64,000 nucleotides of DNA from Schumannella luteola (GTDB lineage Bacteria; Actinomycetota; Actinomycetes; Actinomycetales; Microbacteriaceae). The stretch lies in assembly GCF_013408685.1 (NCBI RefSeq), contig NZ_JACBZY010000001.1, forward strand, positions 2,914,001 through 2,978,000, given 5' to 3'. This document shows, one piece after another, positions 27,994 to 32,059 of this stretch. The position numbers and the translations under genes are program-made. Below the pieces are notes generated by a model that saw only the letters and a list, made by a program, of their open reading frames with translations, made no database searches and was not told the origin of the DNA. Numbering within the stretch: position 1 is the first letter of the stretch; each line of letters opens with the position of its first letter.

Positions 27994-28032
27994 GCGAGCC
28001 CCCGGTCTCCACGACGGAGAGCGGGGGCTCGC
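27994..28032. terminator. Bidirectional terminator between the thioesterase gene and pdtaR
   Basis: Eleven-base perfect arms (27994-28004 and 28022-28032) around a 17-base loop lie between two convergent genes ending at 27987 and 28048. It can serve both strands. Confidence 0.65.
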
Positions 28033-28047
28033 GGGATGTCTGCGGTG

Positions 28048-28656
28048 CTACTTCTTGGCGCCCAGCTGGTCGATGATCGCCTGGGCGACGTCGTGCATGG
28101 TGAGACGGCGATCCATCGACGCCTTCTGGATCCAGCGGAACGCCTCGGGCTCGCTGAGGCCCATCTTCTCGTTGAGCAGGCCCTTGGCGCGGTCGACGAG
28201 CTTGCGCGTCTCGAAGCGCTCGACGAGGTCGGCGACCTCCGACTCGAGCGTGACGATCTGCTGGTAGCGGCTCAGCGCGATCTCGATCGCGGGCAGCAGG
28301 TCGTTGGGCGTGAAGGGCTTCACCACATAGGCCAGGGCGCCGGCCTCGCTCGCGCGCTCGACGAGCTCCTTCTGGCTGAACGCCGTGAGCAGCACGACCG
28401 GGGCGATGTGGTTCTTGCTGAGCTTCTCGGCAGCCGAGATGCCGTCGAGCTGCGGCATCTTGACATCCATCACGACCAGGTCGGGCTTGAGCTCGGTGGC
28501 CAGGGCGACCGCGGTCTCACCGTCGCCGGCCTCGCCGACGACCTCGAAGCCGTTGTCGCGGAGGATCTCCACGATGTCGAGGCGGATGAGGGACTCGTCC
28601 TCGGCCACGACGACGCGGCGCGGACGGCTGATCTCGGTCTCGTCGGTCACGACCAT
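28048..28656 (-). CDS. pdtaR: ANTAR-domain response regulator, PdtaR-like
   Basis: 202 residues. The receiver domain has the acidic pair E19-D20, phospho-acceptor D64 in VVMDVKMPQ, a threonine in LLTAFSQ and the lysine in VVKPF. The C-terminal ~65 residues are an ANTAR RNA-binding domain (RKLVDRAKGLLNEKMGLSEPEAFRWIQ). The PdtaS/PdtaR pair of Actinobacteria uses phosphorylation to let the ANTAR domain bind paired hairpins in target mRNAs and stop premature termination. The sensor kinase gene is not in this window. The start was set at ATG 28656; the open frame upstream runs into intergenic sequence. Next to it lies the left end of the tRNA-Leu islet. Confidence 0.92.
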   Translation of the reverse strand: MVVTDETEISRPRRVVVAEDESLIRLDIVEILRDNGFEVVGEAGDGETAVALATELKPDLVVMDVKMPQLDGISAAEKLSKNHIAPVVLLTAFSQKELVERASEAGALAYVVKPFTPNDLLPAIEIALSRYQQIVTLESEVADLVERFETRKLVDRAKGLLNEKMGLSEPEAFRWIQKASMDRRLTMHDVAQAIIDQLGAKK

Positions 28657-28743
28657 GAGCCTACGGTATGTCCGTACATCCGCCGCGCGCGGGTGAACGG
28701 ATGTGCACGACCCCGTCGACGGGAGCACCCGCGATGCGGGTGC

Positions 28744-28768
28744 GGTGCCGGATAACGGACTCGAACCC
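28744..28768 (-). repeat. Partial tRNA-Leu 3' end (left attachment-like repeat)
   Basis: Matches 31356-31380, the T-loop to acceptor end of tRNA-Leu(CAA), at 24 of 25 positions; the difference is C for G at 28756. Beyond this core the sequence departs from the tRNA and the T-stem cannot form, so it is a fragment and not a second tRNA gene. Such a 3'-end copy at the far side of an insert is the usual mark of site-specific integration into a tRNA gene. Confidence 0.7.
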
Positions 28769-28954
28769 GATACGGGAACCCCGGATCCCCGTGATTTCGG
28801 GGAGTCAGTCGGTCTGTAGCTTGTCCGACGCGCCGAGTTCGCTGGGCGTAATGCGTTCATGGACACACAACGTGGCCTCGCTACCCCCGGCCGCAAGCGC
28901 CGCACCCTGCACCGACCGGCCACCTCCGCTGCCTGACAGGTCACGGCGATCATG

Positions 28955-28995
28955 GAAGAAGCGCCGCACCCCGGCCTGGGGTACGGCGCTTCTTC
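28955..28995 (-). terminator. Long hairpin after the islet membrane-protein gene
   Basis: Twelve-base perfect arms GAAGAAGCGCCG/CGGCGCTTCTTC enclose a smaller CCCC/GGGG stem. It begins 3 bases after the stop of the small membrane protein and ends transcription of the exported-protein pair. On the minus strand the stem runs into only a short mixed tail. Confidence 0.6.
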
Positions 28996-28998
28996 GAT

Positions 28999-29244
28999 TC
29001 AGTCTCGGCGCTGGCGCGACTGGGGCATCTTGTGCGGGATGAACATCACCAGCACGAACGCGAGGATCGGCACCACCGACGCCGGACCGAGCCAGCTCGG
29101 TTCGTAGTGGTTCACGTTGAAGATGACGGTCGCGGCGATGCACCACACGATGCTCCCGATGAACCAGACGGTCCTCCACCACGGGGTGAAGTAGTAGCGG
29201 ATACGACCCGCGACGGTGTCGGGAACCGTTGAGTTCATCGGCAT
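28999..29244 (-). CDS. Small two-helix membrane protein, islet gene
   Basis: 81 residues. Two hydrophobic segments are clear: VWFIGSIVWCIAATVIFNV and LGPASVVPILAFVLVMFIP, with positively charged ends (RIRYYFTPWWR before, HKMPQSRQRR after) suggesting both termini are cytoplasmic. The start chosen is ATG 29244, with GGAGGG six bases upstream; an alternative ATG at 29238 would overlap the preceding stop as ATGA. Translation is therefore coupled to the exported-protein gene just upstream. Size, topology and coupling resemble immunity proteins of membrane-active peptides, but no homologue is recognised and that role is inference. Confidence 0.7.
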   Translation of the reverse strand: MPMNSTVPDTVAGRIRYYFTPWWRTVWFIGSIVWCIAATVIFNVNHYEPSWLGPASVVPILAFVLVMFIPHKMPQSRQRRD

Positions 29245-30233
29245 GAGGACCCTCCGTAGGTGTCCCAGAACGGGAACGGATAGCTCACATGAGTGTAGGT
29301 CAGGGTGAGCTGGAGGCAACGCTTGGGCTTCGAGTTCTGCGCGACCGCGGCGGTGTAAGAACCGGTACCGCTGACGGCGAGGCACGCGGCACCGAAGGCA
29401 GCAGCACCAGCCGGGCCACCGACTGCACTACCAGCCGCGATGCACACGGCGGTGATTGCTGCCGGAGTGAATCCGTTGCTGGCGATGGCTGCGGTCTCGG
29501 CACGGTTCCACTTCACGAGGATCTGGAAGCCATAGGTGATGACGTGGTAGGTCGGGTCGGCGACGACGGGGTAGGCGATGCCGGAGGCCCGATGGTCGAC
29601 GATCTGGACCAGGTTGTTGTCGCGGACGACGTATCGGGTCGGAACGTCCTTCCCGTTCGAGTCGATGGCCCAGGCGGCGTCCGCAGTGCCAATGACTACG
29701 GAGATGGCCGCCCGATGGCCCGTCTCCGGGTCGACCGCGTCCGCCGTGCGGACAAGCTCGACACTGCCGTCGGCCAGGAGCCTGGGGGCCACGTCGTCGG
29801 GCAGCGAGTATGCGTACTCGGTCGGCTGCGACTGCTCGCTGATGATCGTCGCGACTCGCGCCCCGTCTGCCACGGGGTGGATCGCGACGTCAACCGCCGC
29901 GCCCGTGCCGGCGTAGACGGTCGCCCCATCGCTGGCGGAGCTGGCGACCGGCGCGTCAGTGGGAAGGCCGACGGAGATCGTCGGCCCATCGGTGGCGCTG
30001 AGCACGAGGTCGCCGGCGGCGGACGCGGGCGTCGTGACCGTGACTTCGCCGTCGGGAGCCGCCGTGGCAGGAGCCGCGCCGACACTGCTGGCAGCGGCGT
30101 CCGCCTGTGCGGCGAGCAGCTCGGTCTCGTCAGGTGCCGCGAACGCCGCGGTGCTCGCCCCGGCGACGAGGATCGCCGATGCCAGGACCACCCCCGCCGC
30201 GCGCACTCCGTTGTGCATCAGTCGTGTAGCCAT
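29235..30233 (-). CDS. Exported protein with hydrophobic, cysteine-containing C-terminal domain, islet gene
   Basis: 332 residues. A Sec signal peptide is plain, with likely cleavage after AAFA (residue 32). Residues 33-215 are Ala/Asp/Thr-rich and beta-like. YPVVADPTYH at 221-230 marks a junction; I recall similar SYPVVADP-type segments from actinobacterial exported proteins. After it comes an Ala/Gly-rich hydrophobic stretch (257-298) and a short polar tail. All four cysteines (264, 284, 306, 331) are in this C-terminal part, which suggests disulphides outside the cell. CAACAGGAGA gives a good ribosome site before ATG 30233. The stop overlaps the two-helix membrane protein. A secreted bacteriocin-like or cell-surface protein is possible; no family is assigned. 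Confidence 0.75.
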   Translation of the reverse strand: MATRLMHNGVRAAGVVLASAILVAGASTAAFAAPDETELLAAQADAAASSVGAAPATAAPDGEVTVTTPASAAGDLVLSATDGPTISVGLPTDAPVASSASDGATVYAGTGAAVDVAIHPVADGARVATIISEQSQPTEYAYSLPDDVAPRLLADGSVELVRTADAVDPETGHRAAISVVIGTADAAWAIDSNGKDVPTRYVVRDNNLVQIVDHRASGIAYPVVADPTYHVITYGFQILVKWNRAETAAIASNGFTPAAITAVCIAAGSAVGGPAGAAAFGAACLAVSGTGSYTAAVAQNSKPKRCLQLTLTYTHVSYPFPFWDTYGGSSCR

Positions 30234-30451
30234 GCGCTGTCTCCTGTTGGATGAGTGAACGTCAACAACGCTAGACAGACTCCTCTACCCCCGCAGTCCG
30301 CACTTTGGAGGACGAGAAAAACTCTGACTAATACCCTGCGGCCAGAAGCCGCACGTCGTTGACGATTCGACCGAACCGGCACGGTACAGAAAGCCGAGGT
30401 CAACGAGAAGAGGCGATCTCGCCTCGCCCGCAAGGCCATCGGAGCGATTCC

Positions 30452-30549
30452 AATCGCCCCCCCGAACCGAAACACCCCGCTGGCCTCCCGTCGGCGGGAC
30501 GTTTCTGCGTTCCCGGCACGGAGCGTCGGCGGCGTCCGGTAGGACTGCA
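30452..30549 (+). repeat. Duplicated intergenic hairpin module, copy A
   Basis: Shares ordered blocks with 31195-31263: aatcgcccc, a CCCGC/GCGGG stem running into cgttt, a gcgtncccgg block and ggtag(g/a)actgca. Copy A has extra bases between the first block and the stem. Both copies lie on the same strand in the islet, one before and one after the two small plus-strand genes. Confidence 0.5.
30476..30505 (+). terminator. Hairpin with short T run inside module copy A
   Basis: CCCGC (30476-30480) pairs with GCGGG (30494-30498) and is followed by acgtttct. It resembles an intrinsic terminator, upstream of the small plus-strand operon; it may insulate that operon or belong to a lost upstream gene. 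Confidence 0.35.
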
Positions 30550-30600
30550 GGCAACCCGAACACCCCTCAAGACCAGAGGGCCCCGAGCCCGAGGAGCGCA

Positions 30601-30960
30601 GTGGACCTGAGCACCTGGCCGCCCGGCGCGCTGGCGACCTTCATCGCGGCGGTCGTCGCCGGCGTTGTAGCTGTCACCTCGACGATCGCGACGATCATCG
30701 ACGGCGCCGCCTCCCGCCGACGAACCAACGAGCTTGCGAAGCGGAAACAATGGTGGACCCGCTGGTCGTTCACCATCGAAAAGGCCCTCAGCGACGACCC
30801 CTCGGAACGCGAGATGGGAATGGTCAGCATGGACGCCCGCTCCGACATGCCGTGGCTGTCAGAAGACGACGAACGCATCGGGTACGCGATCTCCACAGCT
30901 ATCATCAGGCGCAACAGCCCCAACGAACCGGACGCCCGGGAAGGTGAGGACGATGCCTGA
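30601..30960 (+). CDS. Small membrane protein, first of two plus-strand islet genes
   Basis: 119 residues starting at GTG 30601, four bases after GAGGAG. An N-terminal hydrophobic helix (ATFIAAVVAGVVAVTSTIATII, about residues 12-33) is followed by a basic stretch (RRRTNELAKRKQWW) and a soluble part with many acidic residues ending EGEDDA. The predicted topology is N-out with a cytoplasmic C-terminal domain. No family is recognised. Hand-counted G+C over 30721-30780 is only 57%, clearly below the core genes, which agrees with foreign origin. It overlaps the next gene by 8 bases. Similar small helix-plus-basic-tail proteins are common in actinophages, but this is a resemblance only. Confidence 0.65.
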   Translation: MDLSTWPPGALATFIAAVVAGVVAVTSTIATIIDGAASRRRTNELAKRKQWWTRWSFTIEKALSDDPSEREMGMVSMDARSDMPWLSEDDERIGYAISTAIIRRNSPNEPDAREGEDDA

Positions 30961-31180
30961 GAAGAAGGACACCGACGTCACCATCGCCGCCGCCCGCTCG
31001 GTCGCCGAGAAGATGACTAAGCGGATCACGGAGCGTCACGGCAAGATCGAGAAGATTGCGACGACGCCCAAGCCTGGCAGCACAGTAGATCTCAAGACCG
31101 GCCGCCTGAAGCCGATCCACGTCCCCCACTCGGTCGACGGCGTCGTCGTCGTCGTCGAGATCATCCGCAAGAAGCAGTAG
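30953..31180 (+). CDS. Small basic protein, second of two plus-strand islet genes
   Basis: 75 residues from ATG 30953, preceded by GGTGAGGA and overlapping the previous gene by 8 bases, so the pair is translationally coupled. The protein is lysine-rich and starts with a likely helix (AARSVAEKMTKRITERHGKIEKI), then a beta-like end (GVVVVVEIIRKKQ). No membrane segment. No family is recognised; it could bind nucleic acid or its membrane partner. A terminator hairpin follows 20 bases after the stop. Toxin-antitoxin or phage accessory roles are possible but unsupported. Confidence 0.6.
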   Translation: MPEKKDTDVTIAAARSVAEKMTKRITERHGKIEKIATTPKPGSTVDLKTGRLKPIHVPHSVDGVVVVVEIIRKKQ

Positions 31181-31194
31181 CGCTCTCTGCATCG

Positions 31195-31263
31195 AATCGC
31201 CCCGCGAGCATCACGCCGGCGGGGCGTTTTCGCGTCCCCGGGCCGGCGGCAGGTAGAACTGCA
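31195..31263 (+). repeat. Duplicated intergenic hairpin module, copy B
   Basis: Second copy of the module at 30452-30549, with the same order of blocks (aatcgcccc, stem, cgttt, gcgtccccgg, ggtagaactgca). It follows the small plus-strand operon directly. Confidence 0.5.
31200..31230 (+). terminator. Intrinsic terminator of the small plus-strand operon
   Basis: CCCCGC (31200-31205) pairs with GCGGGG (31219-31224) and is followed by CGTTTT. It lies 20 bases after the stop at 31180 and is the clearest intrinsic terminator in the window. Confidence 0.65.
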
Positions 31264-31357
31264 CCCGGGCGGACCATCCAGGTGAAGATCCGGGCGCTCC
31301 CTGCCGGGGTGCACCGCATCTTCGCGTTCTCGGCCGCGTTTTCAGCGATTCTCGAGG

Positions 31358-31441
31358 TGCCGGATAAGGGACTCGAACCCTTAAGCCCTCACGGACAGAG
31401 CATTTTGAGTGCCCCGCGTCTGCCAATTCCGCCAATCCGGC
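31358..31441 (-). tRNA. tRNA-Leu (anticodon CAA)
   Basis: 84 bases on the minus strand. The 7-bp acceptor stem GCCGGAT/ATCCGGC is perfect with discriminator A; the anticodon stem GGGCA/TGCTC holds the loop CTCAAAA with anticodon CAA; a long variable arm (class II) and a T arm AAGGG-TTCGAGT-CCCTT follow. CCA is not encoded. Its 3' end is the right boundary of the islet at 28744-31380. Confidence 0.95.
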
Positions 31442-31511
31442 GCTCGCGTCGAGACGCGGCATTGGAACGATACCCGACCGCCGCCGCCCGCCCGCGCACG
31501 GCGCCGGCGGC

Positions 31512-31967
31512 TCAGTCGCCGACGACCGCGCCAGCGGGTCGCAGCATCCAGACGTCGACCTCGTCCTCGCGCTCGAACACGAAGCCGTGGCGGTCGTAGA
31601 GGCGGCGCGCCGGACTGCCCTGCAGCACGTCGAGCCGGAACGGCAGCTCGAGATGCGCGTCGGAGACGAGCACGTGAGCGAGCACCGCTCCCCCGATGCC
31701 CCGGCCCTGCAGTGCCGGATCGAGGTAGAAGTGCTCGATCCAGATGCCGTCGTCGGCCGGACGCACCGCGATGAGCCCCGCATCCGCGCCGTCGACCACG
31801 ATGACGCGGGTGACCTCCGGCCGGAACGCCGCGAGAAAGCGCTCGCGCGACCGCTCGGGCGACCACCGGTCGAGACGAGCGAGCTGCGGCTGCATCACGC
31901 GGGTCTTGAGGTCGAGCATCCACTCGACATCGGCGCCGGAGGCGGGGCGGAACGACCAGGCGGGCAT
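31512..31967 (-). CDS. GNAT-family N-acetyltransferase
   Basis: 151 residues, the size of a single GNAT domain. Acetyl-CoA-binding motif A is visible as LQGRGIGGAVL (Q87-G93), preceded by the beta strand WIEHFYLDP and followed by ARRLYDRHGFVFERED, the end of motif B. It transfers an acetyl group to an unknown amine. It is divergent from the XRE regulator gene, whose start lies 92 bases away, so the two may be regulated together. It lies just outside the right end of the tRNA-Leu islet. Start ATG at 31967. Confidence 0.9.
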   Translation of the reverse strand: MPAWSFRPASGADVEWMLDLKTRVMQPQLARLDRWSPERSRERFLAAFRPEVTRVIVVDGADAGLIAVRPADDGIWIEHFYLDPALQGRGIGGAVLAHVLVSDAHLELPFRLDVLQGSPARRLYDRHGFVFEREDEVDVWMLRPAGAVVGD

Positions 31968-32059
31968 CCGTCGACGCTAGCGGCCCGTCGGTGCGCGTCA
32001 CGTCTGCCTGGGGCCGAGGGGGCCAGGATGCGGGGCCCCGGCGCGCGTAGCCTGACCGG

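Follow-up and report, generated by a model that had tools for sequence, protein, structure and literature searches.

How did a 2.6-kb segment of low G+C content come to lie between pdtaR and the gene for the leucine transfer RNA tRNA-Leu(CAA) in Schumannella luteola, and what does it carry? The segment (positions 28744 to 31380) was analyzed within a 64,000-nucleotide stretch of contig NZ_JACBZY010000001.1 (assembly GCF_013408685.1, forward-strand positions 2,914,001 to 2,978,000), hereafter the window, to which all coordinates refer unless another record is named. This islet is probably the stranded remnant of a tRNA-targeting element, either a prophage or a mobilizable element, that lost its recombinase and kept both attachment cores, much like a cis-mobilizable element (CIME). 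Its borders are formed by the following features:

31356..31441, minus strand: tRNA-Leu(CAA), the intact target gene (ARAGORN; Rfam RF00005, tRNA, 51.2 bits)
31356..31380, minus strand: tRNA-side attachment core, the tRNA 3' end from the T-loop to the acceptor end (pattern match, 0 mismatches)
28744..28768, minus strand: distal attachment core, a displaced copy of the tRNA 3' end identical at 24 of 25 positions (pattern match; left flank aligns with the single tRNA 3' end of the nearest relative, G001)

The 25-base 3' region of tRNA-Leu(CAA), GGGTTCGAGTCCCTTATCCGGCACC, is repeated at 28744 to 28768 on the same strand as the gene. Searched as the pattern GGGTTCGAGTCC[C/G]TTATCCGGCACC, the core is intact at 31356 to 31380 and has one mismatch at 28744 to 28768, on the minus strand in both places. 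The original prediction, made from the sequence alone, had described this 25-base copy with one mismatch, 2.6 kb away on the side and in the orientation expected for tRNA-targeted integration, and had taken a left repeat explicable by chance as grounds for rejection. The genome-wide pattern search agrees with that description: at up to three mismatches, the core occurs in only two places in the whole 3.75-Mb genome, a reversed-pattern control gave no match, and the chance expectation in the window was 0.00. A 3' fragment in direct orientation downstream of an intact tRNA is what marks a tRNA-integrated genomic islet, and nonhomologous DNA starts exactly at the inner edges of both cores, with the copy ending at the core, as expected for left and right attachment sites (attL and attR). 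The lower G+C content noted earlier for the DNA between the cores was also borne out (66.6%, versus 71.6% for the window), with a lower value in just 1 of 615 sliding pieces of equal length.

The locus was compared with 96 relatives, drawn from 178 in which pdtaR was found and chosen nonrandomly, mostly from the most similar downward; each relative's locus covered 20 kb, so that longer elements would escape detection. In the nearest relative, G001, whose pdtaR is 99.5% identical, 68 bp separate pdtaR from the tRNA, which has the same orientation and a single 3' end, and both flanks can be aligned with the window as far as the core. The distance from tRNA-Leu(CAA) to pdtaR is 27 to 228 bp in 96 of the 96 relatives versus 2697 bp in the window, and the window genome alone among the 97 compared has an insert between the two genes. 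The empty site with one tRNA 3' end, proposed beforehand as confirmation of an insertion, is thus present in detail in G001 and by distance in all 96 relatives. G003, a member of the same genus, had no pdtaR match and hence was uninformative. Insertion by tRNA-targeted integration is well supported because a near-exact core copy lies on the expected side, the site is empty in G001, and all 96 relatives are free of the insert. A single tRNA 3' end would also be expected if the islet were ancestral DNA that had been precisely excised from all relatives. However, such a history would require the islet to have disappeared from all 96 relatives, which span many genera, and of 398 family genomes only the islet's own has the gene for a 75-amino-acid (aa) protein that lies within it, which makes ancestral DNA extremely improbable.

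A second direct copy of the tRNA 3' end was found in 9 of the 96 relatives (score of at least 17; reverse-strand control maximum of 13). Seven of these copies, in L053, L056, L057, L154, L167, L170, and L187, lie 49 to 156 bp downstream of the gene, and L154 has at least two in tandem. These short-range copies may have been left behind by deleted elements or may have arisen by tandem duplication; at least some of them appear to be of the latter kind, with the terminator duplicated as well. They also suggest how the S. luteola locus might have formed otherwise, with a short tandem duplication of the tRNA 3' end followed by the insertion of unrelated DNA between the copies through some other recombination. 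We consider this highly unlikely: the foreign DNA and the copy meet their cores with the attL/attR-like exactness described above, and the side and orientation of the copy obey the Islander rule for 3' fragments, according to which integration displaces a tRNA 3' fragment to the far end, on a set side and in a set orientation (PMC4383910).

The remaining two second copies belong to G106 and G032, both from one other genus, and lie 2033 and 2204 bp away, respectively. In the G032 islet, the C-terminal part of a tyrosine integrase adjoins the tRNA (PF00589, 2.9e-10; PHROG integrase, 3.1e-19); it is broken by a frame change and matches intact integrases at about 60 to 66%. Part of a prohead protease (PF04586, 4.2e-24; PHROG, 2e-51) and an open reading frame (ORF) with leucine-rich repeats are also encoded there. 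In the G106 islet, ~37 codons of the integrase end are left (71 to 81%). The ends of the two islets align over 228 bp at 87% and 122 bp at 81%, while their middles differ except for one 92-bp match. Judged by these contents, both islets are decayed prophage-type elements at the same tRNA-Leu(CAA). An integrase motif scan of the loci of the first 76 relatives matched G032 alone. Relatives of the G032 integrase remnant adjoin tRNA-Ser, -Met, -Thr, -Phe, -Arg, or -Leu(TAA) or no tRNA, and among 30 such integrase loci scanned only G032 itself adjoins tRNA-Leu(CAA).

The S. luteola islet itself has no recombinase that we could detect, as originally predicted. The PF00589 profile has four matches in the genome, none of them in the islet, and a scan of positions 28000 to 32000 for tyrosine recombinase catalytic motifs was empty; these checks addressed the tyrosine type, and serine recombinases were not searched for. 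Among the four PF00589 genes, L147 and L148 look Xer-like by motif, L145 is beside tRNA-Phe, and L146 has no tRNA within about 10 kb. L145 (G000:C1:102253-102786) is a phage-type tyrosine integrase that adjoins a tRNA-Glu/Asp/Phe cluster elsewhere in the genome. A search had been advised for an integrase elsewhere in the genome that uses the same core; no resident element has this core at its ends. Scans of the four islet genes with Pfam, PHROGs, and further profiles recognized no transfer or virion family, and comparison of the islet DNA with phages returned short weak matches only.

The original prediction had left it between a satellite and a decayed element, and of these two, decay appears more likely because the same site in another genus has islets of the same size with a truncated integrase. 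A minimal satellite that never had an integrase would consist of two cores and cargo and would rely, for integration and excision in trans, on a phage or mobilizable element whose integrase acts at the tRNA-Leu(CAA) core. Such an origin could explain why both cores are near intact (24/25), why the gene pairs are compact and open, and why islets of 2.0, 2.2, and 2.6 kb occur at tRNA-Leu(CAA), of which two agree at their ends and differ in between. We nevertheless think it unlikely, since the genome holds no further core copy at up to three mismatches and thus no resident helper bounded by the core, the exact core has no match in IMG/VR, and the broken integrases of the other two 2-kb islets point to decay. 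A phage satellite would be marked by a helper with the same core or by dependence genes; no other core copy was found in its own genome or in IMG/VR, although an external helper is conceivable, and no evidence for mobilization in trans was found. Among the core matches listed, those annotated in phages were mostly phage-borne tRNA-Leu genes, and those in plasmids were mostly without annotation.

A remnant of a tRNA-targeting element is consistent with two known kinds of islands. PMC5704250 defines the CIME, which shares with the islet two attachment sites around cargo, the absence of integration and transfer genes, and the use of a tRNA 3' end; the islet has kept both attachment sites and would have lost integration and transfer genes. 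It differs from the CIME described there in having no tandem helper and in a parent that could be an integrative and conjugative element (ICE), an integrative and mobilizable element (IME), or a prophage. By analogy, the G032 and G106 islets suggest that the parent was a prophage and not an ICE. With Islander-type tRNA islands (PMC4383910), it shares a displaced 3' tRNA fragment on the right side and in the right orientation and a length of >2 kb. Islander, however, demands an integrase ORF inside the island (PMC4383910), so its filter would reject the islet, which has no integrase in the interval as an Islander island or a self-mobile integrative element would.

We propose the following history. 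After the split from G001, an element with an attP bearing the 25-bp core would have entered the 3' end of tRNA-Leu(CAA) by site-specific recombination of the tyrosine-recombinase type. The tRNA 3' end would have been rebuilt from the element and the original end displaced to 28744 to 28768. The integrase and the transfer or virion genes would then have been lost, leaving two short operons between the two cores. We infer a former integrase in the window copy by analogy only, because no integrase remnant was found in the islet. On its own, the remnant should not move, though an incoming element with the same integrase specificity could in principle excise or move it. The first of the two operons reads toward the distal core:

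29235..30233, minus strand: 332-aa secreted protein, predicted prepro-bacteriocin or polymorphic toxin (family relatives, alignments, Min1 orf64)
28999..29244, minus strand: 81-aa membrane protein, predicted immunity protein (hydropathy; relative in G149)
28955..28995, minus strand: terminator-like inverted repeat after the 81-aa gene (self-complementary by reverse-strand self-match and reading of the sequence)

The islet had been described as holding only small unrecognized genes, which is not the case for the 332-aa protein: it belongs to a recognizable family, with relatives in 69 of 398 family genomes. It has an N-terminal hydrophobic segment, a trunk ending in YPVVADP (residues 221 to 227), and a hydrophobic C-terminal domain with cysteines. 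The start of the 81-aa gene overlaps the 332-aa gene by 10 bases, and hydropathy predicts helices at residues 24 to 42 and 49 to 67 of its product. A consensus terminator scan made no call at the inverted repeat. In an alignment of 30 trunk proteins (the window protein and 29 relatives from about 90 listed places), at least five kinds of C termini were sorted by eye, so that a common N-terminal trunk is joined to differing C-terminal domains, the hallmark of polymorphic toxins. A small ORF with a predicted membrane helix lies directly downstream in 19 of the 30 under a strict rule, versus 1 of 192 control ORFs, which were filtered for high G+C at third codon positions, unlike the toxin ORFs. 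In L093, the secreted trunk continues into a DUF4258-like end (21 bits, short of the cutoff of 25) and is directly followed by a DUF2283 gene (29.1, above the cutoff of 23); going by these domain scores, swapped end and swapped partner go together. G149 retains the two-gene order, with 44% and 35% identity to the 332-aa and 81-aa proteins (the 81-aa relative being L140). Listed annotations of relatives on plasmids include DNRLRE-, TNT-, and DUF4258-domain proteins.

Two phages carry relatives, Microbacterium phage Min1 and Paenibacillus phage BN12; the link to phages is thin because these were the only distinct phages matched among 50,697 records. The alignment of Min1 orf64 with the 332-aa protein spans 305 columns (29%; E = 1e-18) and takes in the C-terminal domain; next, in the order seen in the islet, comes the gene for a 61-aa membrane protein (orf65). 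Both Min1 genes (L256, 38394-39450) are annotated as hypothetical, and orf64 is the second gene after a predicted holin gene. By alignment and gene order, orf64 and orf65 form a toxin-immunity-like pair of the islet type, and the 332-aa/81-aa pair was possibly once a phage moron. The BN12 protein, named "putative closticin," matches residues 118 to 232 of the 332-aa protein at 30.8% and also has a membrane-protein gene downstream. Closticin 574-type bacteriocin precursors are accordingly among the closest known systems, with the differences that the match lies in the trunk and that the C terminus of the 332-aa protein is of another type. No relative of the 332-aa protein was found in PDB or IMG/VR, where the Min1 protein matches Min1 itself only. 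A short-pattern search of genome contigs for the 332-aa and 75-aa proteins was empty, which says little given that another method finds 332-aa relatives.

With polymorphic toxin systems (PMC3482391) and phage-borne MuF toxins (PMC5576092), the family shares a signal sequence, a common trunk, a variable C terminus, a small downstream partner gene, and occasional phage carriage. It differs from them in that the 332-aa trunk has no MuF, RHS, or WXG match in Pfam or PHROGs scans and in that its main C-terminal type is a cysteine-containing hydrophobic domain with a membrane partner. We found no description of the trunk in our searches of the open-license literature. Since the trunk family has varied C termini and small membrane partners and the gene order recurs in G149 and Min1, the pair probably encodes a membrane-acting secreted bacteriocin precursor and a membrane immunity protein. 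The trunk would be exported by its signal sequence, the part after YPVVADP would be the active part, and the 81-aa protein would protect the producer. The cargo is probably kept for this bacteriocin function, and it may have been kept because loss of immunity would expose the cell to the toxin of its kin. A broader proposal holds that in Microbacteriaceae the tRNA-Leu(CAA) next to pdtaR serves as a dock for minimal satellites of 2 to 3 kb, each built solely from two cores plus a toxin-immunity cassette and mobilized by phage integrases acting in trans. It seems distinctly unlikely to us; if it were true, bacteriocin cassettes would be exchanged between fixed attachment ends.

The second operon lies on the opposite strand, together with a repeated intergenic unit:

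30468..30597, plus strand: first copy of the intergenic repeat unit, a terminator-like stem plus GGTAG(G/A)ACTGCA, upstream of the 119-aa gene (local alignment)
30601..30960, plus strand: 119-aa protein with one N-terminal membrane helix, first gene of the module (28 of 398 family genomes; six Clavibacter plasmids)
30953..31180, plus strand: 75-aa basic protein, second gene of the module, overlapping the 119-aa gene (alignments versus shuffles)
31193..31312, plus strand: second copy of the intergenic repeat unit, followed by the attachment core with no convincing gene (local alignment; ORF list)

Relatives of the 119-aa protein on the six Clavibacter plasmids match at 57 to 59%. On plasmid pCSL1 of Clavibacter sepedonicus, the relative (58.9%) comes after a HerA-like helicase gene. 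As in the islet, it overlaps the gene for a small basic protein; the islet pair differs in being chromosomal rather than plasmid borne. The 75-aa protein aligns with the pCSL1 partner at a score of 68 (maximum of 57 in 500 shuffles) and with the G218 partner at 77 (maximum of 44 in 500 shuffles); the score against the G047 partner was not significant (43 against a shuffle maximum of 49). The 119-aa relative in G218 contains one in-frame TAG. Neither the 119-aa nor the 75-aa protein had relatives in IMG/VR or phages. The two copies of the intergenic unit align locally at a score of 74 versus a shuffle maximum of 38. A gene follows the first copy and the core alone follows the second, which would fit the loss of a further gene. 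GGTAG(A/G)ACTGCA is probably a common promoter-type motif rather than specific to the islet, because it was found also in the loci of six other relatives. Past the second unit, a plus-strand open frame (31282-31380) extends into the core on the strand opposite the tRNA; it may have arisen by chance or may represent the truncated beginning of a lost gene.

Several observations weigh against a decayed element with toxin-immunity cargo. The islet is present in one genome only, and neither an intermediate nor an intact form was seen among the 97 genomes. Integrase loss is argued from G032 and G106, which belong to another genus and have unrelated internal DNA, and a tblastn comparison of 31 integrase-like ORFs with the islet gave nothing better than control window pieces. 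(The low E-values came mainly from ORFs L220 and L221, apparently compositional noise with better scores in the controls.) At an E-value of 1e-5, none of the other 397 family genomes has a relative of the 75-aa gene. For the 332-aa protein, searches of Pfam, PHROGs, NCBIfam, and PADLOC returned nothing convincing, and its single-sequence fold was poor (predicted local distance difference test score of 41); the toxin and immunity roles are predictions from family architecture.

As a tRNA-bounded remnant, the islet is of a kind already known, and the polymorphic secreted toxin family to which it leads, with swapped C termini and matched membrane partners, is the more interesting lead. Remnants of this type, beyond the reach of integrase-based island finders, can carry genes for bacterial competition, and pdtaR/tRNA-Leu(CAA) offers a single chromosomal site at which to trace insertion, decay, and cargo change family-wide.

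Two further differences were seen around the tRNA. The pdtaR-to-GNAT interval had been proposed as the unit of comparison, which needs correcting: the GNAT gene (31512-31967), beyond the tRNA, is missing in G001, where an HTH gene directly succeeds the tRNA. No GNAT match of >40% identity was found near the site in the first 20 relatives, and presence or absence of this gene is a second insertion or deletion difference at the same place. Relative to pdtaR, the tRNA-Leu(CAA) gene is inverted not only in the window but also in 9 of the 96 relatives, which come from several genera (L040, L055, L150, L157, L158, L171, L180, L247, and L249); in these nine, the analysis covered only ~1.2 kb downstream of the tRNA. 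Comparison of G001 and G002 points to a flip of one short segment comprising the tRNA and the DNA upstream of it.

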